From contig CANSWR010000014.1 of the NCBI GenBank assembly GCA_947650795.1, positions 1 to 33,062 of the forward strand: a stretch of 33,062 nt of DNA. Reading direction: 5' to 3'. Under the pieces are notes generated by a model. It did not search any database and was not told where the DNA came from. It was given only the letters and a program-made list of their open reading frames with translations. Position 1 is the stretch's first letter; every line of letters starts with the position of its first letter. Positions 29,918-32,934 of the stretch are shown here, piece after piece. Source of the stretch: an uncultured Bacillota bacterium (GTDB taxonomy: Bacteria; Bacillota_I; Bacilli_A; RF39; UBA660). The position numbers were made by a program, and so were the translations under genes.

Positions 29918-32851
29918 ATGCGAAATATGAAAAGTTTTTTTAGGGCGCATAAACGTTCTAAAAAGTTTCTTTTTATGACGGCAGTACTAGCAGTATTTAG
30001 TGTGATGACTATTTCGTCTTATGCTTATTTTGTAGTTACTACAAATGGTTATAAGGCTAGCGAATTATTGGTCGCTAAGTTGTCATATGGTATTAATATA
30101 GTAGAAGATGGTGCTACTGGAAGTACTATTAATAGTAATATAGTTAATGTTCCAGCTGGCAAAAAAGCTTTCTTCTTTGTAACTGTTACTAGTGTTAATA
30201 AGATAGATAGTAAATATACTTTAGCTTATAAAACTAGTAGTCAGGCAGTAGTAAAATATACAGACAAAACTCCTTGGACTAGTTCTGGTTATATTGAAGG
30301 TTATGACAATAGCACATATACTAAAAAAATTAGAGTTGTAGTTGATAATACAGCTAATGGTGAGGCAGCAACTGTTAATTTTGGAGTATATGGAGGGTAT
30401 ACATTTAATAGCTATACAGCAATTAGTTTAGGAGATGGGTATTTCTCAGTAGGTGGACCTTATGAGGAAACAGTTGCTACTGTAGGTGAAAGATTAGTAG
30501 ATATAGTTGAGAAAGAAACTGATTGTGTTACTTCTTCAACTAACAATTGTGTTTATGGTGGAGGTTCATTAGCTAACTATTTACAGTATCCAGCAAATGA
30601 AGATGTATCAAAAAATATTTGGAGAATATTAGGTACTTATCAAATTGGAGATAAAATAGTAGCAAAAATAGTTAGTGATTTGACAGGTAATACTACAGTA
30701 ACAGAATTGCCTACAAGTTTATCTAATTTTTATGGAACACTTGAAAATGTAGATAATGTAGTATATAAAACTAATATGTTTAATTGTACGTCTAGCGGTT
30801 GTGCAACAAGTGCCTACACAAATATAGGTTTGATAACTACTTTTGAGTATAATTCTATTGGTGGAATTAATTCTTATTTAGCTAATTCAAATAGTTTCTT
30901 TGCTATAGATGGTTCTGGAGTTAGTAATATTACTAGTGGTGGAATCGAAGCAACAAGTGGTGATACTAGTAGTGGATTGAGGCCAAGTGTGTATTTGAAA
31001 ACAGATTTGCAAGTTACAGGAAGTGGAACAGCAAGTGATCCGTATAGAATAAGTCAAAAAAGTGATATTAATTTAGTTGCTTATACTTTAGATGGAGCAG
31101 CTACAGAGAAAACTTTCCAATTTCTTCTAGCTAATAATGTTGTTAGAGAAGTTTCTTGTGAAAAAGGAACTAAGGCGACATGGGATTATGCAAGAAATAC
31201 AATAACTTTATCAGAAGTAGTAATTCCAGATTATTGTACTATTGATTTTGGAGATGGGTATGCAGTTAATTTGGTTGCAAATAATGGCCGAGTTACTAGT
31301 CCTAATCCAGTAGCTATTGGATATAATGGAAGTGTAAGTTTTGATGTTGCAGCTAACGCAGGTTATAAATTGGAAGGCGCAACATTAAGTTGTGCAGGAG
31401 GAGCGACAGCGAATTTAGTTAATGGCAAAGTTAATGTTTCAGGAATTACGTCAGCTCAGACTTGTACAATTAATATGGCAAAACAACCTTATAAGATTAC
31501 AATGAATGTACCAAATGGTTCTAGTAATCCTGCAAATAAAGATATTCTTTATAAAGAAAGTGGAGAATTTACTATTACAGCTGGAGCTGGTTATGATACA
31601 GCTGGAATGACAGTAAGTTGTACAGGAGGAACTAAGGCAACAGTAAGTGGTTCTAAAGTTACAGTAAGTGATGTGACTAAAGCTGATACTTGTACAGTCA
31701 CTTTGGGAAGAAAAACATATACAGTAACAGCAAGCGTAACAGGAGGAAGTGCAAATCCAACAAGTAGAACAGGTGTTGCTCATGGAGGAAGTACAACATT
31801 TACAATAAGTGCGTCAGCTAATTATAATTTAAGTGGAGCAACAGTAAGTGGAACAGGATGTACACTTTCAAGTGATAAGAAAACATTAACAGCAAGTAAT
31901 GTAACAAGCAATAGAACATGTACAGTAACAATACCATTGTCATATCAAACATTAGCAAATACAATAAAGTCAGCATATCCAAGTAAGGGAGCAAGGTCAT
32001 CATTTAATGCGATATATACAACAACAGGATTACATACAATAGCAGATTATGATGGAAAGACATCATACTACTTCACAGGGAATCCAAACAACTGGGTAAG
32101 TTTCGCTGGAAAGTTGTGGAGAATCATAAGAATAAATGGAGATGGATCTGTAAGGTTGTTGTACGCTGGAAGTGGTGGAACAGATGGATACTTGACCAAT
32201 GTAGGACAAACAGCATATAATCCAAGCTATAATCATCCAGCATATGTAGGATGGAAATACACAGTAGGTGGTTCTCAATCAGCAGACCGTGGTAATTCAA
32301 CAGTAAGTCCAATATATAGTAAAGTAAAAAGTTGGTATGATACTTTAAGTAGTACAGATAAAGCATATATAAATACAAATGCAGTATATTGTAATGATAG
32401 AAATATCACAAGTGGGTCATATAGTACAAGTAGTACATTCTATTATGCAGGGTATACAAGATTTGTAACAAATAAAAATGCTCCAACATTGTCATGTCAC
32501 ACAAGTGATCAATTTAAAGATGGATTTGGTTTGATGACAGCAGATGAAGTAGTAATGGCAGGTGGTTTATATGGTACAAATAACCCTAACGTTTATTACT
32601 ACCTAAATAAAGATGGAGGTAGTGCCACTGGATCATACTGGTGGTGGACAATGAGTCCGTTGAATTGGGATGGCACTTGGGCGCGCGTGTTCCTTGTGTA
32701 TGGTTCTGATTATTCGCCTGGGCGGATGAGCGCTGCAAGAGTTAAGGATACTCGTGCAGTCGTTCGTCCAGTAGTGTCTCTGAAATCTAGTGTACTGGTA
32801 ACTGGAGGTAACGGAACAGGAGCAAGTCCATATACGTTGATGAATGGATAA
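29918..32851 (+). CDS. large surface protein ending in a variable, lectin-like domain; probable DGR target
   Basis: This 977-residue exported protein has an N-terminal membrane or signal helix (about 15-40, SYAYFVV, similar to SipW-type exports). Residues about 40-200 are beta-rich. The part from about 200 to 385 ends in LRPSVYLKTDLQVTGSGTA. Three tandem beta repeats of about 75 residues start at Tyr448, Tyr525 and Tyr601, each closing with a Cys-Thr-[IV] strand. The C-terminal domain (about 673-977) has FAGKLWRIIRINGDGSVRLL, then GLMTADEV, then WWWTMSP (908-914), ARVF (922-925) and VRPVVSLKSS (949-958). The C-terminal end of this domain echoes that of the 200-385 part. DNA for residues 908-957 is GC-rich and A-poor, as in a DGR variable region. 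No wall anchor is seen at the end. Confidence 0.85.
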   Translation: MRNMKSFFRAHKRSKKFLFMTAVLAVFSVMTISSYAYFVVTTNGYKASELLVAKLSYGINIVEDGATGSTINSNIVNVPAGKKAFFFVTVTSVNKIDSKYTLAYKTSSQAVVKYTDKTPWTSSGYIEGYDNSTYTKKIRVVVDNTANGEAATVNFGVYGGYTFNSYTAISLGDGYFSVGGPYEETVATVGERLVDIVEKETDCVTSSTNNCVYGGGSLANYLQYPANEDVSKNIWRILGTYQIGDKIVAKIVSDLTGNTTVTELPTSLSNFYGTLENVDNVVYKTNMFNCTSSGCATSAYTNIGLITTFEYNSIGGINSYLANSNSFFAIDGSGVSNITSGGIEATSGDTSSGLRPSVYLKTDLQVTGSGTASDPYRISQKSDINLVAYTLDGAATEKTFQFLLANNVVREVSCEKGTKATWDYARNTITLSEVVIPDYCTIDFGDGYAVNLVANNGRVTSPNPVAIGYNGSVSFDVAANAGYKLEGATLSCAGGATANLVNGKVNVSGITSAQTCTINMAKQPYKITMNVPNGSSNPANKDILYKESGEFTITAGAGYDTAGMTVSCTGGTKATVSGSKVTVSDVTKADTCTVTLGRKTYTVTASVTGGSANPTSRTGVAHGGSTTFTISASANYNLSGATVSGTGCTLSSDKKTLTASNVTSNRTCTVTIPLSYQTLANTIKSAYPSKGARSSFNAIYTTTGLHTIADYDGKTSYYFTGNPNNWVSFAGKLWRIIRINGDGSVRLLYAGSGGTDGYLTNVGQTAYNPSYNHPAYVGWKYTVGGSQSADRGNSTVSPIYSKVKSWYDTLSSTDKAYINTNAVYCNDRNITSGSYSTSSTFYYAGYTRFVTNKNAPTLSCHTSDQFKDGFGLMTADEVVMAGGLYGTNNPNVYYYLNKDGGSATGSYWWWTMSPLNWDGTWARVFLVYGSDYSPGRMSAARVKDTRAVVRPVVSLKSSVLVTGGNGTGASPYTLMNG
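32639..32790 (+). other. putative DGR variable region (VR)
   Basis: Between 32681 and 32790 I count 57 G or C in 110 bases. Between 32657 and 32782 only 19 of 126 bases are A, and 26 of 42 codons have no A. Invariant-looking residues use A-free codons rare elsewhere here (GCG CGC GTG TTC for ARVF; GTC GTT CGT near RPVVSL). Adenine mutagenesis from a template would leave such a mark. No matching template repeat is in the window. Confidence 0.6.
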
Positions 32852-32899
32852 GAAGCAAGGTAAATAAGGGGTATGCAGGGATTCGAGGTAAGAAGGAAA

Positions 32900-32934
32900 C
32901 TCAATAATAAGACTGAATGAGTCTTATTATTGAG
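32900..32934 (+). repeat. perfect 15-bp inverted repeat (cruciform) after the variable gene
   Basis: CTCAATAATAAGACT (32900-32914), loop GAATG, then the exact reverse complement (32920-32934). It begins 49 bases after the stop. No T-tract follows on either strand, so it is not a standard terminator. DGR targets often carry a hairpin just past the variable region. Confidence 0.75.

Follow-up and report, generated by a model that had tools for sequence, protein, structure and literature searches.

In the usual account of diversity-generating retroelements (DGRs), mutation runs forward from a master template that stays fixed, which means that the template itself never learns. Canonical DGRs, of the BPP-1 type and the cellular avd/RT/MSL type, combine a DGR-type reverse transcriptase (RT), an Avd-like partner, an A-free 3′ anchor, a structured RNA 3′ of the template and adenine-directed differences between a variable region (VR) and its template repeat (TR), with one template near the RT. 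Action in trans is also on record: the DGR of Thiohalocapsa PB-PSB1 diversifies remote targets in trans (PMC10907252), and both multi-VR systems and trans action are known from surveys (PMC6642488, PMC3521204). As many as six TRs are reported from a single genome, where A changes were few (PMC6642488). Remote DGR parts escape surveys confined to the neighbourhood of the RT, as has been stated for remote targets (PMC8144416). A different solution is found in Neisseria pilS and Borrelia vls, which are silent in-frame variant archives for a segment of a surface protein and are copied by DNA recombination.

The locus described here has the parts of a canonical DGR, including adenine-directed template/VR differences, which here are seen in relatives. 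It differs from the canonical arrangement, represented by one TR each in genomes G060 and G052 of other genera, in that dozens of diversified templates are arrayed away from the RT. With the Thiohalocapsa and multi-VR DGRs it shares diversification in trans by an RT and/or TR elsewhere and several VRs per system, but those systems multiply VRs or whole loci rather than templates. Like pilS and vls it keeps an archive of silent in-frame variants for a surface-protein segment; unlike them, its cassettes take the form of template-RNA units bearing a hairpin, and change in relatives is restricted to adenines. Nowhere in the open-access literature searched did we find dozens of distinct DGR templates described in one array. 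Its parts and the way its relatives behave make this a likely DGR, its novelty being the template library.

A GC-rich variable region at the 3′ end of the target gene

The window, that is, the whole stretch of DNA analysed, is a 33,062-nt contig (CANSWR010000014.1) of an uncultured Bacillota bacterium, whose assembly, G000, comprises 87 contigs and is 93% complete. The initial annotation had noted an unusual composition at 32639-32790 and read it as a DGR variable region with a lectin-like fold, served by machinery lying out of sight. The composition claim holds. These letters, WWWTMSPLNWDGTWARVFLVYGSDYSPGRMSAARVKDTRAVVRPVVSL, are 52.0% GC and 17.8% A, compared with 25.3% GC and 39.0% A for the whole window and 33.8% GC and 36.2% A for the upstream part of the same open reading frame (29918-32638). 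The sliding-window comparison that the annotation had recommended confirms this as the most extreme stretch of the contig, unmatched in GC richness and A poverty by any non-overlapping 152-nt stretch of the 33-kb window. Its figures need correction, A being 18% rather than 15% and the GC content of the window 25% rather than 28%. The features of the gene are as follows.

29918..32851, + strand: target gene, an open reading frame of 977 aa with a hydrophobic N-terminal segment and the VR at its 3′ end
32030..32848, + strand: C-terminal domain, the VR scaffold, common to the target genes of the genus, with homologs in G000, G077 and seven more genomes
32651..32769, + strand: VR, the segment homologous to silent template cassettes, defined by homology plus GC/A composition
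32651..32659, + strand: 5′ anchor ATGAGTCCG, common to VR and templates
32759..32769, + strand: 3′ anchor GTCGTTCGTCC, A-free; template similarity drops behind it
32781..32871, + strand: gene tail, of which parts have exact copies at the ends of contigs C18 and C2

The 3′ anchor GTCGTTCGTCC occupies the place of the DGR initiation-of-mutagenic-homing (IMH) sequence, a role that we infer from position. The 977-aa protein has no match to any Pfam family and its surface placement is inferred from the N-terminus only; the C-terminal domain has neither a Pfam match nor a PDB sequence match, and no relatives of it were found among viral contigs. The WTMSP...VRPV layout on which the lectin-like assignment rested does recur in relatives, but the fold itself is neither supported nor refuted, since the AlphaFold model of the domain is poor (pLDDT 32) and cannot decide it. 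In the same protein, an earlier motif, GLRPSVYLK...GTASDPY (window 30965-31055), resembles the end of the variable domain and lacks the GC-rich signature. An inverted repeat, CTCAATAATAAGACTGAATGAGTCTTATTATTGAG, lies directly behind the gene (32900-32934) and is possibly a terminator.

Target domains are found at about eight places in G000, and dozens of domain matches are present in the sister genome G120. The gene tail recurs exactly at contig ends (32781-32835, 55 bp, at the end of C18; 32820-32871, 52 bp, at the end of C2), which indicates further target genes broken at assembly joints; at C2, one such broken gene adjoins the template array of that contig. A second class of targets comprises proteins of ~200-240 aa that carry the same VR with no signal segment seen (L025:6305-6985, L022:8284-8946 and L196-L198 on G077:C3); these short proteins are among those with the clearest A-only segments.

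The DGR operon lies on another contig

An RT-family search of G000 returned two clear RTs. One, on contig C6 (L021:4849-5979, minus strand), has an intact frame, carries IGNMTSQ and YMDD and so meets the DGR motif criterion of xGxxxSQ in place of QGxxxSP together with YMDD, although no tree stands behind this typing. It matches the PHROG RT family (E 9e-76), and its best PDB chain is 8ub7 (E 9e-29), which we take to be the BPP-1 DGR complex. Upstream lies an Avd-like gene with hits to bAvd PF22296 (E 1.6e-7) and NF033474 (E 4e-8), both scoring below the curated cut-offs, and to phrog_3206, 'Avd protein of DGR' (E 5e-12). Downstream, a gene with a MutS domain I scores above the MutS_I cut-off and is taken here to be the MSL of the DGR literature. 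The criterion of an accessory gene adjoining the RT is thus met by the Avd-like and MutS_I genes, and the prediction of machinery outside the window held. No template was found beside the C6 operon, either by eye in the gap next to the RT or with the RNA model described below. The second RT (C2:1853-2965, L019) is retron Ec107-like (PADLOC E 4e-121) and was rejected as the DGR RT; an XRE-type regulator gene lies near it.

An archive of in-frame template cassettes

The unit ATGAGTCCG...GTCGTTCGTC, which in the window spans 32651-32768, recurs elsewhere in the genome as cassettes of 106-127 nt that are homologous to the window VR and stand in intergenic tandem arrays on six contigs (C46, C12, C31, C21, C2 and C19). 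The RNA model R1 detects 77 template-RNA units in G000 at E up to 1, all within arrays. Every one of the 72 scored cassettes is in frame and stop-free, compared with 3/144 flanking stretches of like length. This count excludes L014:6657, which is out of frame with a stop and was set aside by hand (72/73 with it); partial and chance matches had also been left out by hand. The cassettes average 45% GC and their flanks 17%. Neighbouring units can have flanks that are 90-100% alike and cores that are just 73-79% alike, with length differences that keep the frame. An archive of silent in-frame variants of the expressed segment is therefore present in G000, and in place of the single template expected of a DGR there are about 75 templates, forming a library at a distance from the RT.

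In a codon alignment of the cassettes, many variable columns follow an NNY pattern in which positions 1 and 2 vary, with A common, and the third is nearly fixed (entropies of 1.74, 1.56 and 0.35 at column 30); column 33 departs from it, its first base being C or T. Non-A differences between G000 cassettes are common, so that recombination or plain divergence also acts. A hypothetical AAC-rich master template was sought in G000 and rejected, the best matches being <=91% and all within arrays or target genes. Pristine or near-pristine templates are present in G122, G121, G119 and G120, and comparison of cassettes with the master template of another species is confounded by AAC/AAT third-position differences.

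Upstream of many cassettes (L012, L014, L016, L020), at a distance of 10-40 nt, we observe a recurrent GGATAATATT, often after GATAAAAT, which is possibly a promoter or an RNA 5′ element. A promoter scan found TTGATT-17-GATAAT upstream of four C46 cassettes; the overall excess is modest (58 vs 38 in shuffles, sd 6.5). The cassettes L012:9074, 9747 and 10083 are identical; among them lies 9410, a different cassette whose flanks are nearly the same as theirs, and from sequence alone we infer recent tandem duplication plus core replacement.

A covarying hairpin behind the cassettes

Most silent cassettes are followed by the element TTTCTCTT..CATA(A/G)..(T/C)TATAGTAG..AAGAGAAACAA, which is absent from the expressed genes; a few silent cassettes lack it. 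The model R1 was built from 57 copies, with cassettes lacking a clear element omitted. Across 42 sequences from nine genomes, 96.8% of cells form the pairs of a 19-pair structure, compared with 45-61% in slid controls. The former percentage leans upwards because the pairs were named on the same sequences on which they are scored, and covariation is better judged by the doubly changed cells: 69 were observed vs 23 in shuffles, and 0/500 shuffles reach 69. RNAalifold, given own-genome copies alone, returned 7 pairs without covariation, which appeared once sister species were added and the pairs were named by hand. A scan of two arrays matched no Rfam family. The canonical template of G060, a member of another genus, has the same layout with an altered outer stem (TTTCTTCA/TGAAGAAA); other genera are less clear.

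In BPP-1, a structured spacer 3′ of the template recruits RT and Avd (PMC12875486), and a hairpin is therefore an expected part of a DGR template RNA. The DGR criterion of a structured RNA 3′ of the template is met. That the conserved hairpin serves as a platform recruiting RT and Avd is an inference.

Adenine-directed change in relatives

Homologs of the RT occur in 58/117 genomes of the family. At seven RT loci of other genera, TR and VR lie side by side (the other loci fetched yielded no such pair), and the mismatches falling at template A are 18/18, 15/15, 13/13, 22/23, 22/22, 16/18 and 21/22, with T counted on the reverse strand; the filter used to list the pairs favours A or T bias. Several targets at these loci have the W(T/S)MSP...RPV layout seen in the window. 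Genome-wide, G060 holds one full template plus eight copies of the VR part only, and G052 one of each. In G081, G060 and G058 (L123:3583-5373, L124:2169-3728, L125:337-1857) the RT frame continues into a MutS-I-like part, and RT and MSL look fused, again as judged from sequence alone.

Within the genus, the R1 unit is found in 9/9 genomes with 1-77 copies. At E 0.01 the counts are 71 in G000, 29 in G077, 16 in G118, 6 each in G120 and G123, 3 in G117, 2 in G119, and 1 each in G121 and G122; the low counts may reflect losses in assembly, as many units sit at the ends of contigs. The RT was found in 6/9 genomes, 75-81% identical and with no adjoining R1 unit, and was not found in the other three, all of which are incomplete. 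In G077, RT and an R1 unit both lie on C12, about 23 kb apart.

The clearest sister-species pairs have 16/16, 15/15, 16/16, 23/23 and 12/12 of their mismatches at template A; listed by genome, pairs reach 23/23 in G119, 12/12 and 24/25 in G122 and 12/13 in G121. Over all pairs at or above the identity cut-off of 0.72 (>=72%), the totals are 242/364 in G120, 113/139 in G119, 95/107 in G122 and 46/82 in G118, which has the lowest share and more diversified templates. In G077, VR L198 and one of the templates differ at 15 sites, of which 13 are at template A and none has A in the VR. The DGR reading of the initial annotation is supported here: in homologous systems of the family and genus the WTMSP...VRPV domain is diversified, and nearly all changes fall at template A.

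The six-template array of G120 allows VRs to be assigned to individual templates. L203 agrees with template 8367 at every non-A base and has 3-7 non-A mismatches to the other templates; L253 agrees in this way with template 8715 (8-13 to the rest) and L257 with template 7809 (8-12 to the rest). These clean cases are the best among 29 VRs. At places where its siblings have A, template 8715 already bears other letters (ATTGTT, GGTCAG), which recur in its VR. Since each of the three VRs matches its own template, including the non-A letters of 8715, different and partly diversified array templates have been used. Template-template differences in G120 involve A in 7/7, 8/8 and 9/10 cases in three pairs and 4/11 in another. 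The frequency of A in them hints at a possible rewriting of templates by the same mutagenic copying, a step that is not shown.

The window VR and its own archive

The annotation had also proposed a search for a near-copy of the VR differing only at A positions, and no single copy of this kind was found. Among the 72 scored cassettes the nearest is L024:6132, where 6 of the 16 mismatches fall at template A, and no exact parent was found in the G000 assembly. The A-only rule is met by one segment of the window VR only, a run of 40 nt explained by template-A changes, vs 28 for any other base. Longest A-only runs elsewhere are 46 vs 25 for the VR on C22 and 33 vs 28 for that on C11; the remaining four of the seven expressed G000 VRs show no A-only excess over controls. 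A-specificity in the window's own genome is thus weak and visible in segments only. We infer either a diversified archive from which the assembly lacks the exact parent, or mosaic VRs.

Proposed mechanism and alternatives

Based on the arrays, the use of array templates in sister species and the one-TR relatives, we propose a trans-acting DGR in which a single template became a library of pre-diversified templates. The window VR likely belongs to such a system, with its library elsewhere in the genome. The homology of the parts, the RNA structure, the use of multiple templates in a sister species and the A-specificity in relatives are shown by comparative genomics. That the archive of this species is still active, and that the window VR derives from one or more of its templates, are inferences, without expression or activity data. 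In the proposed mechanism, the avd-RT-MSL operon on C6 would supply the mutagenic RT and Avd. Array units would be transcribed as short RNAs, some from a plausible TTGATT-17-GATAAT promoter, and the RT would copy a cassette template with errors at adenines. Lastly, the cDNA would replace the VR of one among several target genes, between the two short anchors.

The most serious alternative is silent-cassette gene conversion of the pilin or vlsE kind, in which the arrays are DNA donors for homologous recombination and the RT is unrelated or no longer used. It would account for the many silent in-frame variants, the mosaic sharing of blocks, the non-A and in-frame length differences between cassettes, the lack of an A-only parent for the window VR and the weak A bias in its own genome. 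We nevertheless regard it as unlikely: the covarying hairpin behind the cassettes matches the spacer layout of canonical DGR templates, the A-only pairs of sister species use array templates, the RT is kept in the genus, and the anchors measure just 9-11 nt. DNA recombination may well act alongside DGR copying. A decayed DGR, whose arrays are relics of duplicated templates, untranscribed and uncopied in this species, with the low A content a frozen trace, could likewise explain the weak A-specificity of G000, the few hairpin-less copies and the one frame-broken cassette. It is also improbable, as the scored cassettes are all in frame and stop-free, unlike their flanks; neighbouring units have flanks up to 100% alike, yet their cores differ; the catalytic motif and frame of the RT are intact; and three segments carry A-only change.

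Tandem repetition of a coding segment plus a 3′ structured element also recalls integron-like gene cassettes, in which every coding piece would be followed by a structured recombination site. This origin is very unlikely, although we have no integrase data: the expressed genes hold the core without the structured element, so whole units were not inserted, and the layout of the element is that of the DGR template RNAs of another genus.

Returning to the trans-acting DGR, about 75 different stored templates mean that the system could both redeploy stored versions and mutate them. The templates themselves may have been diversified by mutagenic copying back into templates, from TR to TR or from VR to TR, which is inferred and not shown. 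A bolder reading, towards which we remain slightly sceptical, is that mutagenic cDNA or selected VRs are copied back into the arrays as a growing heritable library. Under it, frame-checked, pre-diversified variants of a binding site could be redeployed to several surface genes, joining DGR hypermutation to a pilin-like memory. A genus with 1 to 77 templates, already diversified and traceably used in one species, offers a route from a DGR to a stored-variant repertoire. Whether a bacterium can archive successful binding variants becomes testable with such a template library, and the nine genomes yield a compact model of a DGR template RNA, supported by covariation.
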